Shown here: positions 17,940 to 60,681 of the stretch, one piece after another
Numbering within the stretch: position 1 is the first letter of the stretch
Layout of the letters: every line of letters starts with the position of its first letter
Assembly (NCBI GenBank): GCA_902800025.1
Contig: CADCDA010000004.1
Coordinates: 115,365 to 176,179 of the forward strand
Direction of reading: 5' to 3'
DNA length: 60,815 nt
Source of the DNA: an uncultured Erysipelotrichaceae bacterium
GTDB taxonomy: Bacteria; Bacillota_I; Bacilli_A; RFN20; CAG-826
Made by a program: the position numbers and the translations under genes
Notes under the pieces: model-generated
Seen by the model: the letters and a program-made list of their open reading frames with translations, nothing else
What the model was told of the DNA's origin: nothing
Database searches by the model: none

Positions 17940-19206
17940 ATTTATGAACAACTTTATTAATTAATACTTCTATTAAATCATTATCTTCAAATTTGTGAAT
18001 TGAAAAGACTTTATTTCCCATATAGTTAAGCGAAGTTCCTAAGGAATAACATATTTTTGAATCAATAATTAGAAATCGATCATGAAATAAGTCATTAATT
18101 CTATAATCAAAGATACCACCAAATTGATTCACAAACCGATTTACTTCTTCTTCATCAAGTTTTGATTTAGAACTTCCATACACAGTCACATTAACGTTCG
18201 CGTTTTTATTCTTTAAAAAAGTAAGGATTGCGTTATCACAGTAAGGGTCGATAATAACAATCGATTCTTTAGCGGTCCTGATGATAGAAGATAGGAATTC
18301 GTACGCACTATAGTATTCTCCATTAAAAAATATCTTTTCCCTAGGAGGCTCTTCATATACTTGTTTTTCTACTTTATCCATTCTTGTCTTAAGCAAAGAT
18401 ATGTCGTTTTCTAGTTGCACAAAGTTTTCGGTTGTCACCATAACTCGAGCTTTATCAATCGCATATCCTTTTAATAAATATCTCTTTAATACGTTAGTGG
18501 CCCATCTTCTAAATTCGATACCTCGAGAAGTGTTGACTCTATAGCCGAGTGAGATGATCATATCGAGGTTGTAATACGCGATGTTTCGAGTAACTTTTCT
18601 GCCTCCTTCAAGTTGAACTAGTAAGAAATCCTTACAAGTTGCCCCCACTTCTAGTTCACCTGTTTCATAGATATTATTTATGTGCATTGTTATATTTTGT
18701 CTTGCTGTTTCAAATAGTTCTGCAATCTGAGCTTGATTAAGCCACACTGTGTCTTCTTCTGGAGATATTTTGACATCTAGTTTGATGTTACCATTATTAT
18801 ATATAATAATGTCTTGATTATTTTCTATCGTTTCTTGGCTTAGATAGTCGTCTAAAGACTTCTTAAGTAATAAGCCTCTATCAGAGCCAATTCTTCGTCC
18901 AATTTCGAGCGCAACATCAAGGTTATAATAGTTGACTATATATCGCTTTCCATCGGGTCCAGTTGTTTCATTTTTGACACTAGCTGTTGCATTTTTGACG
19001 TCAGTTGTTGCATTTTGTGAAACAGCTCGATTTTCGATTTCTTCATTAATTTTTTTGATGTATCTCCATATTGTGGATTTGTTTTTTCCGTATAAGATGC
19101 ATAAGTCTTTTGCGGATAACCACACTGTCTTATCCTCACTAGAAAAATTGACATCCATTTCAATGTCTTCTACTTTGAATTTTATTGTTTGAAATGTTTG
19201 ATTCAT
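17938..19206 (-). CDS. RhuM-family protein with C-terminal PLD-like domain
   Basis: A 422-residue protein. Two RhuM-like N-terminal modules occur in tandem: DKTVWLSAKDLCILYG (first ~60 residues) and EDTVWLNQAQIAELFETARQ with YRVNTSRGIEFRRWAT (~145-265). They are followed by a coiled coil and a phospholipase-D-like region with the single catalytic motif HDRFLIID near residue 385. RhuM genes are scattered in bacteria and linked to mobile and virulence regions; biochemistry is unclear. The start at 19206 has AGAGGAC upstream. Between the modules runs a 7-residue repeat NATTDVK-NATASVK-NETTGPD encoded by 21-bp DNA repeats. Its 5' leader has a homologue at 59.5 kb. Confidence 0.82.
   Translation of the reverse strand: MNQTFQTIKFKVEDIEMDVNFSSEDKTVWLSAKDLCILYGKNKSTIWRYIKKINEEIENRAVSQNATTDVKNATASVKNETTGPDGKRYIVNYYNLDVALEIGRRIGSDRGLLLKKSLDDYLSQETIENNQDIIIYNNGNIKLDVKISPEEDTVWLNQAQIAELFETARQNITMHINNIYETGELEVGATCKDFLLVQLEGGRKVTRNIAYYNLDMIISLGYRVNTSRGIEFRRWATNVLKRYLLKGYAIDKARVMVTTENFVQLENDISLLKTRMDKVEKQVYEEPPREKIFFNGEYYSAYEFLSSIIRTAKESIVIIDPYCDNAILTFLKNKNANVNVTVYGSSKSKLDEEEVNRFVNQFGGIFDYRINDLFHDRFLIIDSKICYSLGTSLNYMGNKVFSIHKFEDNDLIEVLINKVVHK
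18955..19017. repeat. 21-bp tandem repeat inside the RhuM gene
   Basis: Two full copies (18969-18989, 18990-19010) and degenerate partial copies on each side, encoding the heptad N-A-T-x-x-V-K. Copy change would keep the frame and alter only linker length. Confidence 0.75.
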
Positions 19207-19316
19207 AAAAAGTCCTCTCATATTAATAAGAGTGAAAAAAATTGAAAAATTTAAAAAAATTCCAAAAATATTTTTCTTATAAAAGCATTAATTAATATAT
19301 TAATTATTTTTTCATA
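19204..19316 (-). repeat. RhuM leader, copy 1 of a dispersed leader sequence
   Basis: Read on the minus strand, this AT-rich leader contains TAATTAATAT, A/T tracts, the near-palindrome CTCTTATTAATATGAGAG, the ribosome site and ATGAGAGGACTTTTTATG. A diverged copy with the same order of elements lies at 59517-59632 (also minus), in front of a different reading frame. Confidence 0.7.
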
Positions 19317-19374: not shown

Positions 19375-20835
19375 TTACAGACTTTTCATTTCTTTCTTGT
19401 TTCGATACATTTTCGAGTCTGCGCGTTTGAATGTATCTTCGACATTGTTATCAATTGATGGATCATAGACCGCAACCCCAATAGCAGCGGAGAATTGACT
19501 ATCGTATTTCTTCATTTCTGACTTGAATGCACTTTCAAGTTTTTTGATATTACGATAATCTTCGTCCTCACTGACGACAACAAATTCATCACCACCAACA
19601 CGATAGACGGTGGATTTTGTAAAGATTTTATTAATGGTTTCTGAGACAGCGACAATAAGGATATCTCCTCTTTCATGTCCTAATGTATCGTTTGTGACCT
19701 TAAGGTCATTTAAGTCAATCATAGCGATAGAGAAATTAGCGTCACCATTTTTAATCTCTTCGTTGAGTCTTTCTTCAACTTCGAAATAGGCGCGTTTATT
19801 TAATACACCTGTTAAAGCATCTCTATCAGCGAGGTGTTTCATTTCATTGACTTTCTTTTCTGCACCCTCTAATGCGGTAGTGGTGCTTAAGAGGTCAGTA
19901 ATGTAATGGTTGATATCACCTTCCATCTTCTTCATAGAATTGGAAAGATCTTCAATTTCATCCCTAGTGTTAATTTTAATTTTTTCGAATTTATTAAGTT
20001 CTTTGTTTTCACTTGAAGTATAGTCGTTTGCCGCTTTAGCTAAGATTCTAACTGGTCTAGCAATAAAGAAGACAACGAGTAAGAAACCAATTAAAACAGA
20101 ACCAACACTGATGGAAGTAAGGGTGATAACAAGGGTTTGTGTATTAGCATTTTCTCTAGCGATAATCTCATCCATTGATAAATCTACAAGTGCATAAGCA
20201 ACGATATTATGGGATTCATCAAAGATTGGTTGAGCGGTACTAGCAAGATAGCCGTATTCAGGCATATTAGTGATTTCTGGAGGAAATCCTCCTTCAGGAT
20301 TATCGTGAATGCTCCTATCGTGCTCGGTAAAGTTATCAAATGTGCCAGGAGTGCATCTTTCTTCTTCGTCAGCATCATCCGCTAGATAAATAATGCGTTC
20401 TTTAACAAAATCGGCGTAGACAAGGCATGTATATTTAGCTTCTGTATTTTTAGAATGGAATAACGCGAGTTGCTCCATGATTGCTTCATATTCAGGCATC
20501 GCGATAACTTCATTAAATCTAGCGCAATATTTTTCCCATTCTAGTTCGCCCCAATATGAATTTTCAACTTTGTCTTTTTCAGGAATTGATTGATAGATTT
20601 CGTCTGTTTTGTTTTTAACAGCTTTAACGTTGTTTAAATCAAGGAAAATCGCAAGTGTACTAGCGGTTTCCACTGATTGATCGATATAAAAGTTTCTCGT
20701 AATTGATCTAATTGTTGAAGAGAAGAAGTTAATACCGACAATACTAATAAGTGAAACAGAAAAAAGTAACACGAGAAGTGTCTTAGCCCATAGAGGGAAT
20801 CTAAATTTAAATTTTTTCTTTGTTTGTTCTGCCAT
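19375..20835 (-). CDS. Membrane sensor diguanylate cyclase (Cache-like, HAMP, GGDEF)
   Basis: A 486-residue protein: short cytoplasmic basic N-terminus, transmembrane helix (~17-38), a ~200-residue extracellular sensor consistent with a Cache fold, a second helix (~230-255), a HAMP-like linker, and a GGDEF domain with SIAMIDLNDLKVTNDTLGHERGD and the canonical RVGGDEF. The RxxD inhibitory site is absent. ATG 20835 is preceded immediately by the terminator of a c-di-GMP-I riboswitch, so synthesis is under feedback by its own product. A longer reading frame from 20868 would run through the terminator stem and is not the likely start. Confidence 0.9.
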   Translation of the reverse strand: MAEQTKKKFKFRFPLWAKTLLVLLFSVSLISIVGINFFSSTIRSITRNFYIDQSVETASTLAIFLDLNNVKAVKNKTDEIYQSIPEKDKVENSYWGELEWEKYCARFNEVIAMPEYEAIMEQLALFHSKNTEAKYTCLVYADFVKERIIYLADDADEEERCTPGTFDNFTEHDRSIHDNPEGGFPPEITNMPEYGYLASTAQPIFDESHNIVAYALVDLSMDEIIARENANTQTLVITLTSISVGSVLIGFLLVVFFIARPVRILAKAANDYTSSENKELNKFEKIKINTRDEIEDLSNSMKKMEGDINHYITDLLSTTTALEGAEKKVNEMKHLADRDALTGVLNKRAYFEVEERLNEEIKNGDANFSIAMIDLNDLKVTNDTLGHERGDILIVAVSETINKIFTKSTVYRVGGDEFVVVSEDEDYRNIKKLESAFKSEMKKYDSQFSAAIGVAVYDPSIDNNVEDTFKRADSKMYRNKKEMKSL

Positions 20836-20865
20836 AAAAAAATCGGTACCTTTTAACAATACCGA
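20836..20865 (-). terminator. Riboswitch expression-platform terminator
   Basis: TCGGTA (20865-20860) pairs with TACCGA (20848-20843), followed by T7 that ends exactly at the ATG. The AAAAGG ribosome site lies in the loop, so the same hairpin could affect both termination and translation. Confidence 0.85.
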
Positions 20866-20894
20866 CAAACTCTACTACACAAAAAGTGTAGAAT

Positions 20895-20975
20895 CATATG
20901 AGTGCAACTGGCTGCCCCGTAGGGGCCCTATAGCTTTGCGTCACCGGATTACTCCGGGTTTGCCGATATGTCTTT
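20895..20975 (-). ncRNA. c-di-GMP-I riboswitch (GEMM-I)
   Basis: On the minus strand the aptamer shows the class-I consensus in order: GGCAAACC with a GGA-tetraloop-like hairpin, GGTGACGCAAAGCTA, GGGCCCCT...GGGGCAGCC, and AGTTGCA closing P1. GACGCAAAGC and CAGCC are the diagnostic blocks. It lies upstream of a GGDEF protein, a classical context. A second hairpin CTACAC-T5-GTGTAG (20891-20875) sits between aptamer and terminator; its 5' arm can also pair with GTGTAG upstream of the aptamer (20988-20983), a plausible switching helix. A promoter TTGAAA-17-TAGTAT lies at 21009-20981. Confidence 0.92.
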
Positions 20976-57522: not shown

Positions 57523-58256
57523 TTTCTAGTCATCCATTTCACTAACTCTTTGACATAAGGATATTCATCATCGATATCTTTCTTACAAGATCCATCAACG
57601 TGATTACCTTCTAACTCTAATTTTGTGATATCCGCGTTAGGGCTATAGAACTTTACGAGATTATAAAGCATGATGTTTTGTTCTTTTCTATTTAACATAT
57701 CGTTTGAGTAGTAGATAAGTAGAAGTGGAGGAACGTCGTTATCTTTAGTGACATAGTACATTGGACCAATCTTTGTGATTCTTTGTAGCCAAGGATCGAT
57801 TCCATATTCAAGTTTTTGAACATTGAAGTGGTCATTCATTTGTCCAGAATCAGAAACATAGCCTTTGATATCTTTTGGTGATAGTCTTACTGTTTCTAAG
57901 TATTCTTTATTTAAAGCGAGCATTGTAACGATATATGCACCTGCGGATTGACCTGAAAGGTAGATGTTATCTTTTGAACCATGATACTCTTCAATATGGT
58001 CATAGATATATTTAACTGCTTTTGCCGCTTCTATTAAGTAGATAGGAAACTTAGTGTTTGGGTATAAGGAATAGTTAACGTTCACCATTAGGTAGTTTTT
58101 GTTACATAAATGAATCATTAAATCGTCGACATCGGTTTTGTCCCCTTCCACTAATCCGCCTCCATGGAAGTGAACGAAAGTGGCCTCAACTTTTTCAGGG
58201 ACAAAGATGTCGAGGTGTAAATTAGGAAGATATTCGATATTTCTAATGATTTTCAT
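57519..58256 (-). CDS. Alpha/beta hydrolase (HSL-like esterase)
   Basis: A 245-residue cytoplasmic esterase. HFHGGGLVEGDKTD forms the oxyanion hole, GQSAGAY carries the nucleophile Ser, and the C-terminal GNHVDGS supplies the His. The family includes acetyl-xylan/carbohydrate esterases and bile or lipid esterases. Its stop and start overlap neighbours (1 nt with manA, 4 nt with DUF4886), so the three are a tight operon, plausibly removing acyl groups from sugars. Confidence 0.85.
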   Translation of the reverse strand: MKIIRNIEYLPNLHLDIFVPEKVEATFVHFHGGGLVEGDKTDVDDLMIHLCNKNYLMVNVNYSLYPNTKFPIYLIEAAKAVKYIYDHIEEYHGSKDNIYLSGQSAGAYIVTMLALNKEYLETVRLSPKDIKGYVSDSGQMNDHFNVQKLEYGIDPWLQRITKIGPMYYVTKDNDVPPLLLIYYSNDMLNRKEQNIMLYNLVKFYSPNADITKLELEGNHVDGSCKKDIDDEYPYVKELVKWMTRK

Positions 58257-59158
58257 TATTTGTTTAAATAGGAAAGGATAATTGTGCCTTTACCTTTAAT
58301 AACGCATTTCTTTCCATAAGGAAGGAAGAAGGTATCGTATATTTTATAATCGATATCATTTACTTTTCCTTCTCCTTCAATAAAGGTGAAAGACATAAAT
58401 GAATCTTTATTTGCTTCTAAAGTTAATTCTTTATTAATATTGATTTTTTCAACTTGGAAATATGGTGTATCTCCAATTTTATTGGAGTTATTGTTTTCTT
58501 CTCGATGATATTTATTTAGATTTATGACATCTAACGCTTTATCGATATTGAGCTCTCTTTTATTTCCAAACTTATCGGTGCGGTCATAATCATATAAACG
58601 ATATGTAAGGTTACTATTTTGTTGGATTTCAATTAGTTGAACCCCTTTTCCTATCGCGTGGATTGTTCCACTTTTAATAAGAAAATAGTCTCCTCTTTTA
58701 ACTGGGAAGAAATTAAGAGCGTCTAAGATCTTTCCGTTTCTAAGAAGTTCTTCAATTTCTTTTTTAGAATAATCTCTTTTTAATCCGACATATAGTCCAG
58801 CGCCTGGTTCATTATCTAAGATGTACCACATCTCAGTCTTGCCATATGAATTTTCGTTTTTTAAAGCATATTCATCACTTGGGTGAACTTGAATTGAGAG
58901 GTTTTCTTTTGCGTCTATGAGTTTGATGAGCAAAGGAAAATAAGGGAATCTTTTTGATACTGGTCCAATATCGTCATTATCAATTGCGTTATCTAATCTT
59001 AGATTTAAAGAAGGGATATAACTACTATCAGAGTCTCTAACAGACAGTTCCCATAATTCAGAAAGGATTCCTTCTCCTTTACCGTATTTAGTGAAGTAAC
59101 TACCTCCCCAAATATAGTCTTTAATTGCAGGTTTTAATTTCACAACTTCTTTTAACAT
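58256..59158 (-). CDS. manA: Mannose-6-phosphate isomerase, class I
   Basis: A 300-residue zinc enzyme converting mannose 6-phosphate to fructose 6-phosphate. The metal-site signature NLSIQVHPSDEYA (His plus neighbouring Glu of KTEMWYIL) and the later KSGTIHAIGKGVQLIEIQQNSNLTYRLYDYDR are present. It is the short Firmicutes form. A TATAAT (59182-59177) lies 18 nt before the ATG. First gene of an operon with two esterase-like hydrolases and a Nudix enzyme, consistent with use of acylated mannose-containing material. Confidence 0.94.
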   Translation of the reverse strand: MLKEVVKLKPAIKDYIWGGSYFTKYGKGEGILSELWELSVRDSDSSYIPSLNLRLDNAIDNDDIGPVSKRFPYFPLLIKLIDAKENLSIQVHPSDEYALKNENSYGKTEMWYILDNEPGAGLYVGLKRDYSKKEIEELLRNGKILDALNFFPVKRGDYFLIKSGTIHAIGKGVQLIEIQQNSNLTYRLYDYDRTDKFGNKRELNIDKALDVINLNKYHREENNNSNKIGDTPYFQVEKININKELTLEANKDSFMSFTFIEGEGKVNDIDYKIYDTFFLPYGKKCVIKGKGTIILSYLNK

Positions 59159-59275: not shown

Positions 59276-59388
59276 GTGTGGTGGTCTACCTTTTTATTAG
59301 CCGCTAGCGAGGGAGTTCCCCTCTTTACTTTTATCTACACTATGTTAATATATAGTTGGTTTGGTGCTCCCTCGTGGGAGCTTTTTTC
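59276..59388 (+). ncRNA. Candidate antisense (antitoxin) RNA
   Basis: Promoter TGATATAAG ends at about 59271, and the intrinsic terminator GCTCCC-TCGT-GGGAGC with T6 ends at 59387. CGAGGGAG (59308-59315) is complementary to CTCCCTCG (59367-59374), and TAGTGT (about 59275-59280) to ACACTA (59337-59342), so the RNA folds extensively. It converges on the minus-strand hydrophobic-peptide gene and overlaps its 3' UTR, as in TxpA/RatA-type type I systems. No protein is predicted from it. Confidence 0.5.
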
Positions 59389-59449
59389 ATCTCTTAAGGA
59401 GGAGACCTACAACAACTAAGAGAACAATTAATAGAACTAAAAGCTCCAT
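59387..59449 (-). CDS. 20-residue hydrophobic peptide, candidate type I toxin
   Basis: Reads MELLVLL...GLLLKR: one acidic residue after Met, about sixteen consecutive Leu/Val/Ile/Gly, then Lys-Arg and stop, the shape of type I toxin membrane peptides. AAAGGA (59461-59456) is six bases from ATG 59449; an ATG two codons earlier has no spacing. The upstream 46-codon frame from 59534 overlaps it out of frame. The stop codon abuts the terminator of the convergent RNA. The length is too short for standard gene finders. Confidence 0.55.
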   Translation of the reverse strand: MELLVLLIVLLVVVGLLLKR

Positions 59450-59516
59450 AACCATTCCTTTCTTCGTTAACATAGAAAGAAAAAGTAATTCGGAGAACAC
59501 CTCTTATAGACGTCTC

Positions 59517-59632
59517 CATAAAAAGGCCCCTCATATTAATAAGAGGAAAAAAATCGCGATTTTTTAAAAATTTTCTTCAACTTTTTTCTAAAGATATACG
59601 TTAATTATATTAATTATTTTTTTGATATTTTT
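59517..59632 (-). repeat. Leader homologous to the RhuM leader, copy 2
   Basis: On the minus strand the order TAATTAATATAATTAA, A/T tracts, CCTCTTATTAATATGAGGGG, then ATGAGGGGCCTTTTTATG matches the RhuM leader at 19204-19316, including the MRGLFM-coding stretch. Here it leads into the hydrophobic-peptide locus. It includes the perfect palindrome AAAAAATCGCGATTTTTT. Confidence 0.7.
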
Positions 59633-59745: not shown

Positions 59746-60681
59746 ATGAAACGTAAACTCTCACTTTTATTTTTGTCCCCACTCTTAATGTCTCTTATTG
59801 GATGCAATAACCAAGGAACTCCTACTCCTACACCTACTCCACCAGAACCAAAAGGAGATGTTGATGTTGTCATCATCTCTGGACAATCTAATGGGGTTGG
59901 CTGTACTTGGTGTAACCAAATAGAAAGATCAATGGGGAGAGACAAATATAACGAATACTTTGTTGGATATTCAGATATTCAAATCGCTTTTGAAAGCTGG
60001 ACTTTTGATTATACTGGAACCGCTCCTGAACCATATGCACTTCAAAACCATTCAAATGGTGAATTTACTAAAGTAACTTTAGGGCAAGGAAATGGAAAAC
60101 ATTCCTTTGGACCAGAGATTGGTATCGCTGAAGCAACACATGAAAAACATGGAGGCAAACTCTTCCTTATTAAATACGCATGTGGAGCCTCAAACCTCAA
60201 CAATGACTGGGTTCAAAAAGATTACCAAATGTATTCTGGAATGATTACTTTTATTAAAGAACAGATGGAAAACCTTGAATCTCAAGGCTATAATCCAACC
60301 ATTAAAGCGTTCTGCTGGATGCAAGGTGAAGGCGATTCATATTATGGCTATTATCAAAGATATTTAGCGAACACTAGAACATTTGTGGGTCATATTAGAG
60401 AAGACTTAAGAGAATTGTCTGGTGATAGAGAAATAGCCTTTATTGACGCGGGTATTAATAACAATCCATCAAGATGGCAATATTGGAAACAAATTAACGA
60501 TGCGAAACAAGCGTTTGCCGCTGAAGGCGAAAATAACTTCTATATCGACACGATTGGAGCAGGTATGCATACAAATCTTGAACCAATTGGAAATGTCGAT
60601 GGTGATCATTACGATTCCGCATCAGAAGTTCTATTAGGGCATCTATTCGCTGAGAACTTCGAACAATTCTTAACGAAATAA
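59746..60681 (+). CDS. Lipoprotein carbohydrate esterase (SASA/SGNH family)
   Basis: A 311-residue lipoprotein: a signal peptide with lipobox LIGCNN, a TPTPTPTPP linker, then an SGNH-fold esterase with block I VVIISGQSNGVG (nucleophile Ser), AFCWMQGEGDSYYG (block III) and GDHYDSASE (catalytic Asp/His). This is the sialate O-acetylesterase/acetyl-xylan esterase-like (SASA) family, removing acetyl groups from sugars outside the cell. It fits the ManA-esterase operon next door, though it is transcribed separately. Confidence 0.88.
   Translation: MKRKLSLLFLSPLLMSLIGCNNQGTPTPTPTPPEPKGDVDVVIISGQSNGVGCTWCNQIERSMGRDKYNEYFVGYSDIQIAFESWTFDYTGTAPEPYALQNHSNGEFTKVTLGQGNGKHSFGPEIGIAEATHEKHGGKLFLIKYACGASNLNNDWVQKDYQMYSGMITFIKEQMENLESQGYNPTIKAFCWMQGEGDSYYGYYQRYLANTRTFVGHIREDLRELSGDREIAFIDAGINNNPSRWQYWKQINDAKQAFAAEGENNFYIDTIGAGMHTNLEPIGNVDGDHYDSASEVLLGHLFAENFEQFLTK

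Follow-up and report, generated by a model that had tools for sequence, protein, structure and literature searches.

Genomic setting and features of the locus

The window, meaning the whole stretch of 60,815 nucleotides analyzed here, comes from a genome assembled into 26 contigs that total 1.57 Mb. The candidate toxin–antitoxin locus lies in a 587-bp gap between manA (minus strand, 58256–59158), whose closest matches reach 49–51% in Bacilli MAGs, and a gene for an SGNH-type esterase (plus strand, from 59746). It consists of a cassette of about 240 bp, referred to as cassette A, in which a short reading frame on the minus strand converges with a predicted small RNA (sRNA) unit on the plus strand. 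The features of the cassette are collected in Table 1, together with related copies elsewhere. Rfam scanning of the locus and the window gave sub-threshold scores only; rli40 (22.8 bits, gathering score 100) and tsr26 (25.5 bits, gathering score 141) were dropped as identities for the locus because both fell below their gathering scores. Elsewhere in the window, a c-di-GMP-I riboswitch aptamer (50.9 bits; 20900–20974, minus strand) lies upstream of a minus-strand gene at 19375–20868.

Table 1 Features of cassette A in the window and of related copies. Positions without a prefix refer to the window.
Feature	Position	Strand	Remark
Decayed remnant of a neighboring cassette-B antitoxin end (GGTCTACCTTTTTATTAGCCGCTAG)	59276–59303	+	Sister copy at C5 has it intact
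Hairpin GAGGG-GAACT-CCCTC	59309–59323	-	End of the conserved cassette; possible 3′ end of the toxin mRNA; no U-run
3′ arm of the predicted long-distance helix	59324–59348	-	3′UTR of the toxin mRNA; complement of the antitoxin promoter
Predicted antitoxin promoter: -35 TTTACT (59324–59329), N16, extended -10 TGT-TAATAT (TAATAT 59346–59351)	59324–59351	+	Kept in one orphan as well as in all three full copies
Predicted antitoxin sRNA, ~34 nt: G/U-rich 5′ tail AGUUGGUUUGGU, terminator hairpin, U-run	59354–59387	+	Putative transcription start
Toxin ORF MELLVLLIVLLVVVGLLLKR, 20 aa and stop	59387–59449	-	ATG 59449, stop TGA 59389–59387; 3 copies
Overlapping out-of-frame reading frame	59394–59519	-	Part of a 46-codon frame
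Shine–Dalgarno (SD) AAAGGA	59456–59461	-	6 nt before ATG; kept in 3/3 A copies
Leader arm of the predicted long-distance helix, TTACTTTTTCTTTCTATGTTAAC	59466–59488	-	Inverted copy of the antitoxin-promoter region
5′ stem-loop of the toxin mRNA (UUUUUAUGGAGACGUCUAUAAGAGG)	59500–59524	-	Predicted fold; first part alignable to cassette-B leaders of genome G009
-10 region of the toxin promoter, within CCTCTTATTAATATGAGG	59533–59541	-	Putative promoter role
Cassette A copy	C5:85548–85810		92% to window
Cassette A copy	C24:1622–1906		88% to window
Orphan copy, antitoxin part of A only	C2:172950–173045		
Cassette B in the source genome	C24, C16, C3		Antitoxin-only remnants at C5, C16, C2
Family-B peptide, example METLLILFLLCLLASIIKGPNPKG			
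Orphan antitoxin units	L012 700–1200, L004 1500–1650, L002 1460–1530, L268, L273		

Copies of the cassette in the source genome

Searching the source genome at the DNA level recovered two further near-complete copies of cassette A (E = 2.5e-101 and 2.6e-95), so that three full copies are present, with unrelated flanks and with different genes downstream at every copy. The orphan at C2 carries the same antitoxin sequence as the C24 copy. In the search of relatives, the three A toxins were confined to the source genome.

The putative toxin promoter falls within CCTCTTATTAATATGAGG, which, together with an AT-rich flank, is repeated about 12 times in the source genome before ordinary genes, including recA. 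We therefore regard CCTCTTATTAATATGAGG as a general promoter or leader element of this genome that the cassette appears to use as its toxin promoter. Viewed more widely, CCTCTTATTAATATGAGG forms part of an element of about 60 bp composed of A/T tracts, ATCGCGATTTTTT, CCTCTTATTAATATGAGG and an SD-like GAGG near an ATG, found in the window at 59517–59580 and 19204–19312 and at loci L006–L014. About 12 occurrences of this element precede genes that are unrelated to one another, among them recA and those for an ABC transporter and a RelB/DinJ-like antitoxin. From its sequence it looks like a strongly conserved promoter or leader of the genus, and it may be a common operator. Behind the shared element at locus L010 (G000:C2 near 142,500–142,850) lies an ORF of 60 aa, MKYELMTEEELVAETSGAAITLTAVMAVLATAVLAVIVYKLFLSKKGTAQVPGGWKFTWN, whose predicted product, with an apparent N-terminal leader, resembles a small peptide of secreted or bacteriocin-like type.

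The toxin reading frame

An earlier reading of the window, made from the letters alone (hereafter the sequence-only reading), had described a hydrophobic minus-strand peptide of 20 residues behind a well-placed AAAGGA, and both are present (ATG 59449; SD 59461–59456). Its description of the helix as built of Leu and Val only needs correction, as the peptide also contains Glu2, Ile8 and Gly15. A membrane helix is predicted in this short hydrophobic peptide. Since a second in-frame ATG upstream (59455) is missing from both sister copies of cassette A, the start that gives 20 aa is taken as the correct one.

Comparison of the three full A copies separates this frame from the one that overlaps it. 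Five codons of the toxin frame have changed, four synonymously and one by a Leu/Ile exchange, whereas in the overlapping out-of-frame frame seven codons have changed, every one of them nonsynonymously (7/7). This difference indicates that the peptide is what selection keeps. The hydrophobicity of the peptide and its ribosome site, on whose conservation the sequence-only reading depended, are both retained, the changes being as given above (4/5 synonymous, the fifth L/I) and the SD being present in 3/3 A copies. The overlapping stretch of 46 codons that the same reading had offered as a possible translational lock does exist (59394–59534), but is not supported as a conserved lock. An indel in copy C24 disrupts the frame of its first ATG; starting at an ATG at 59519, the frame is open in 3/3 A copies. 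A role as a coding lock was rejected on its substitution pattern.

The predicted antitoxin RNA

On the plus strand, the extended -10 and the terminator whose T-run touches the toxin stop codon, both described in the sequence-only reading, lie at 59346–59351 and 59366–59387. The terminator (GCTCCC-TCGT-GGGAGC, 59366–59381) begins about 15 nt past the -10 and combines a 6-bp G+C stem with a run of six T (59382–59387), and its U-run is present on the antitoxin strand only. The -35 (TTTACT) is weak. The sRNA predicted from these signals folds with z = -3.0; its T-run extends onto the toxin stop codon, making it antisense to the toxin 3′UTR from the stop codon on. Sequence conservation of a promoter and a terminator at a fixed place overlapping the toxin transcript points to a gene for an antisense RNA. 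Complementarity between the toxin start region and the sRNA tail was not detected over 32 cassettes (mean z +0.09), and a permutation test on 12 dissimilar representatives gave p = 0.73.

Of all parts of the three A copies, the antitoxin stretch has diverged most, with changes in 13/34 columns against 23/189 in the remainder (Fisher p = 5e-4). Divergence that is fastest in this region would fit insulation of each paralogous antisense pair from the others.

A sister family of cassettes in the genus

At C24, cassette A stands in tandem with a second cassette, B, whose toxin strand encodes MTDTLGVIIILTLLCILAYIIKGPTNKG and which carries, convergent to the toxin, a predicted promoter (TTGACA-N17-TACTTT) and a terminator hairpin. 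A first profile built from four B peptides found relatives throughout the genus, with matches reaching 1e-19, and a wider profile was built afterwards. The wider profile gave 43 matches (E ≤ 0.003) in 17 of the 279 genomes of the order, namely 12 of the 19 genomes of the genus, with four g26 genomes and one g25 genome from the same family making up the rest. Recognizable copies of cassette B number about 40 across 12/19 genomes of the genus, with a few more in other genera of the family. Among 395 genomes of the class, there was no B beyond the known ones and one doubtful match (G298, E = 7e-4), which has a stop codon inside and was not accepted as a member.

The B cassettes nearly always share one layout, with a leader of 125–160 nt, an SD AAAGGAGG and a peptide of 20–28 aa of the form ME..(V/L)IL.LLC.LVSIIKGP.PKG. 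The -10 of the toxin strand is often a perfect TATAAT at the place of the A -10 (e.g., CTCTTTATATAATGTAGGG). In most copies, the convergent TTGACA-N17-TACTTT promoter, predicted to drive an RNA of about 40 nt, is found with almost no variation in its distance to the toxin stop. An independent pattern search for this promoter across the 19 genomes of the genus yielded 27 matches, and the reversed pattern yielded 1; 25/27 adjoin a toxin match, and the other two (2/27) keep the antitoxin terminator without a toxin. In a comparison of 27 antitoxin RNAs, no two had the same terminator stem, and each still forms a stable hairpin followed by U's. In family B, the antitoxin stem sits inside the last toxin codons, so the C-termini of the B toxins vary freely (KGPNPKG, KSPTRKD, KDQSR, KKH, KESPRR and KGHNRRG). 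The tendency seen in A recurs in a close group of B copies, with changes in 24 of the 45 columns of the antitoxin stretch (p 0.006), although the region past the promoter is equally variable there. B copies adjoin varied housekeeping genes, with no constant neighbor.

Cassettes A and B have in common a leader arm, an ORF, an antitoxin terminator, and an antitoxin promoter with a matching 3′ arm. Given their tandem position, the similarity of their leaders (p about 0.005–0.015) and this shared layout, they are likely one family by descent. The peptides are no proof of this, as the B-toxin profile does not single out the A peptide (2.8 bits; 75/500 shuffles score as high). Neither peptide has a match passing the curated cut-offs of Pfam, NCBIfam, PHROGs or PADLOC, nor any match in PDB, phages, plasmids or IMG/VR, and the peptide strings turned up in no paper in a literature search. 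Hits of PF15675 (CLLAC) to three B members, which fall on a low-complexity stretch and below the family cut-off, were discarded.

Orphan antitoxin units, in which promoter and terminator remain and the toxin is deleted, occur near intact cassettes or away from them; they are possibly active in trans as anti-addiction RNAs. Partly deleted cassettes were also observed at L152 (G009:C5 ~8,600) and L199 (G002:C59), with the leader fused to the toxin 3′ end or with tandem toxin ends, a sequence pattern that speaks of rapid decay and rearrangement.

Predicted long-distance pairing in the toxin mRNA

The predicted toxin RNA of the window, about 228–229 nt, folds with z = -4.0. No intrinsic terminator was found on the toxin strand at the locus, and the 3′ end of the mRNA is therefore a guess. 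In the predicted fold, the dominant helix joins TTACTTTTTCTTTCTATGTTAAC in the leader to the 3′UTR where the latter is complementary to the antitoxin promoter. Pairing of leader and 3′UTR is strong in the three A copies (z -4.3 to -6.6). The arms are CTATGTTAA (leader) and TTAACATAG (3′UTR) in the window and CTATGCTAA and TTAGCATAG in C24, where the helix shows a compensatory change (T to C / A to G). Corresponding leader/3′UTR pairs occur in family B, namely GTGACTT-CTTT with AAAG-T-AAGTCAC, TTGTGGTTT with AAACCACAA, TAGTGGTTT-CTCT with AGAG-T-AAACCGCTA, and TTCTTGGTTTACTT with AAGTAAACCAAGAA.

Because the duplex energy of the whole leader with the 3′UTR was clear for A only, this measure was replaced by a test focused on the arms. 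Across 12 dissimilar representatives, leader arms paired with their own 3′UTR at a mean of −14.3 kcal/mol and with those of others at −11.0 kcal/mol (permutation p < 0.0001); the two controls gave no signal, with p = 0.39 for the flank beyond the promoter and p = 0.73 for the toxin start region with the sRNA tail. In the leader copy of A, the -10 of the antitoxin promoter is broken (TAATAT to TAACGA), which suggests that the copy is kept as a pairing partner and not as a promoter.

The toxin AUG is predicted to be 2–5% unpaired in 3/3 A copies. In BsrG/SR4, the ribosome site becomes more sequestered when the antitoxin binds at the 3′ end; here, simulated binding of the sRNA lowered predicted SD accessibility in some cassettes (from 0.36 to 0.03 at G009:C5 and from 0.38 to 0.28 in the window) and not in others. 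Folding with the 3′ arm removed gave no consistent release of the SD, and an activation step in which 3′ trimming frees the ribosome site is accordingly without computational support. The data support 5′–3′ pairing of the predicted toxin mRNA, which the sequence-only reading had missed, as the lock, in place of the overlapping frame.

Interpretation and alternative explanations

Taken together, the locus is very probably a chromosomal, multicopy type I toxin–antitoxin cassette consisting of a candidate toxin and a predicted antitoxin RNA. The convergent type I layout with 3′-overlapping transcripts, as in TxpA/RatA and BsrG/SR4, had been proposed in the sequence-only reading and is borne out by the dispersed copies, the purifying selection on the peptide frame, the conserved promoter and terminator of the sRNA, the sister family and the orphan antitoxins. 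The relatives with a peptide and a convergent RNA that it had suggested looking for are found, in the same layout, in 12/19 genomes of the genus.

In the mechanism that we propose, the toxin gene would give rise to an mRNA of about 229 nt that closes on itself through the 5′–3′ helix. With its start codon held in a local hairpin, the closed mRNA would be poorly translated. The constantly made sRNA would seed, via its unstructured G/U-rich tail and its terminator loop, on the A/C-rich 3′UTR past the stop codon, and the resulting duplex would be destroyed by RNase III or kept silent. Once the short-lived sRNA is lost, through loss of the locus or arrest of transcription, the stable toxin mRNA would be translated in processed form, and the peptide would insert into the membrane and cause depolarization.

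A non-toxic small membrane protein, such as a transporter regulator, tuned by a convergent antisense RNA would show the same anatomy, the toxin role being read from sequence, and the varied housekeeping genes that adjoin the B copies would suit it. This explanation nevertheless appears improbable. Many paralogues per genome with very variable C-termini, tandem and dispersed copies, and remnants that retain the antitoxin and lack the toxin are what toxin–antitoxin turnover typically produces and what a protein dedicated to one partner typically does not; nor is there a constant neighbor gene. It is far less credible that the cassette is a dispersed non-coding repeat (MITE/REP-like or made of shared promoter–terminator fragments) with an accidental peptide. 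Although the recurrence of CCTCTTATTAATATGAGG before ordinary genes at about 12 other places would agree with such a repeat, this reading is largely refuted by the substitution patterns of the toxin and overlapping frames, the compensatory changes in the long-distance helix, the conserved SD and start, and the recovery of family B peptides by profile (E to 1e-19). Least plausible of all is a plus-strand attenuator or riboswitch serving the gene at 59746 and unrelated to the peptide, for while the upstream GCGAGGGAG can pair with the terminator arm CTCCCTCGT in an antiterminator-like manner, there is no Rfam match, the genes downstream change from copy to copy, GCGAGGGAG precedes the sRNA promoter and is hence outside the sRNA, and the pairing is not kept because the terminator stems differ between copies.

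For the favored type I cassette, a more specific account seems reasonably probable, namely that the family joins the 3′-overlap design of Gram-positive systems with a hok-like closed mRNA, in which the toxin leader carries the antitoxin promoter in inverted copy and this serves as the lock. Any change in the promoter spacer would then have to be matched in the leader, and, as the B antitoxin terminator encodes the toxin C-terminus, the toxin tail would change as a by-product of antitoxin specificity. The cassettes would represent a large, quickly turning-over candidate type I family of uncultured Bacilli, so far unnamed and in a size class skipped by annotation. Their organization is unusually compact, with the predicted antitoxin promoter, antitoxin terminator, toxin C-terminus and mRNA lock within the same ~100 bp. 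Dozens of natural paralogues with diverged but matched parts make the orthogonality of antisense pairs and the repeated evolution of closed toxin mRNAs testable.

Comparison with known type I systems

The TxpA/RatA and BsrG/SR4 systems of Bacillus subtilis resemble the present cassettes in their convergent transcripts and small membrane peptide, and in an antitoxin that is antisense to the toxin 3′ region, without complementarity to the start region. Their transcripts overlap by ~75 nt (TxpA/RatA) and ~120 nt (BsrG/SR4) (PMC4147584), whereas the predicted overlap here is shorter, at about 34–45 nt. The toxins have 20–28 aa against 59 aa for TxpA, and no Pfam or NCBIfam match connects the A or B toxins to TxpA. 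In size and composition, the toxin is similar to Ibs of the Ibs/Sib systems of Escherichia coli, of which IbsC has 19 aa (PMC8309996). The Sib RNAs, however, pair over the ibs mRNA itself, whereas the predicted sRNA ends at the stop codon, outside the codons of toxin A.

In hok/Sok and AapA/IsoA, the toxin mRNA contains a covarying long-distance interaction between its 5′ and 3′ ends (PMC6733600), and a covariation-supported 5′–3′ interaction is likewise predicted here. Unlike in those systems, the antitoxin covers the 3′ end and not the 5′ leader, and it does not match the start region. The 3′ arm here is complementary to the antitoxin promoter, and folding shows no consistent SD release on 3′ trimming.

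Fst/par of pAD1 and its relatives (Fst/Ldr) combine a toxin RNA of ~230 nt and an antitoxin RNA of ~40 nt with convergent promoters, a 5′ stem-loop, an antitoxin hairpin as recognition element and many chromosomal paralogues (PMC7472228). The cassettes described here are alike in their convergent promoters, their RNA lengths (about 229 and 34 nt from the predicted ends), the 5′ stem-loop, an antitoxin hairpin that would act in recognition and the many chromosomal paralogues. An antitoxin pairing with the toxin start in the manner of Fst/par was rejected on the start-region values given above, there being no complementarity of the DRa/DRb type. In Fst/par, the two RNAs also share a bidirectional terminator, whereas the U-run here serves one strand only. 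On inspection of the alignment, the Fst signature (PXXXG in the helix and Trp before a charged tail) is absent from the peptides, and these have no Pfam or NCBIfam match.

Since these Fst features were not found, the TxpA-type peptides are unrelated and the hok/aapA antitoxins act at the other end of the mRNA, we set the system apart as a candidate new type I variant. Its predicted architecture is nearest to that of Fst/par, with an antitoxin placed as in TxpA/RatA and BsrG/SR4 and an mRNA closed as in hok and aapA.
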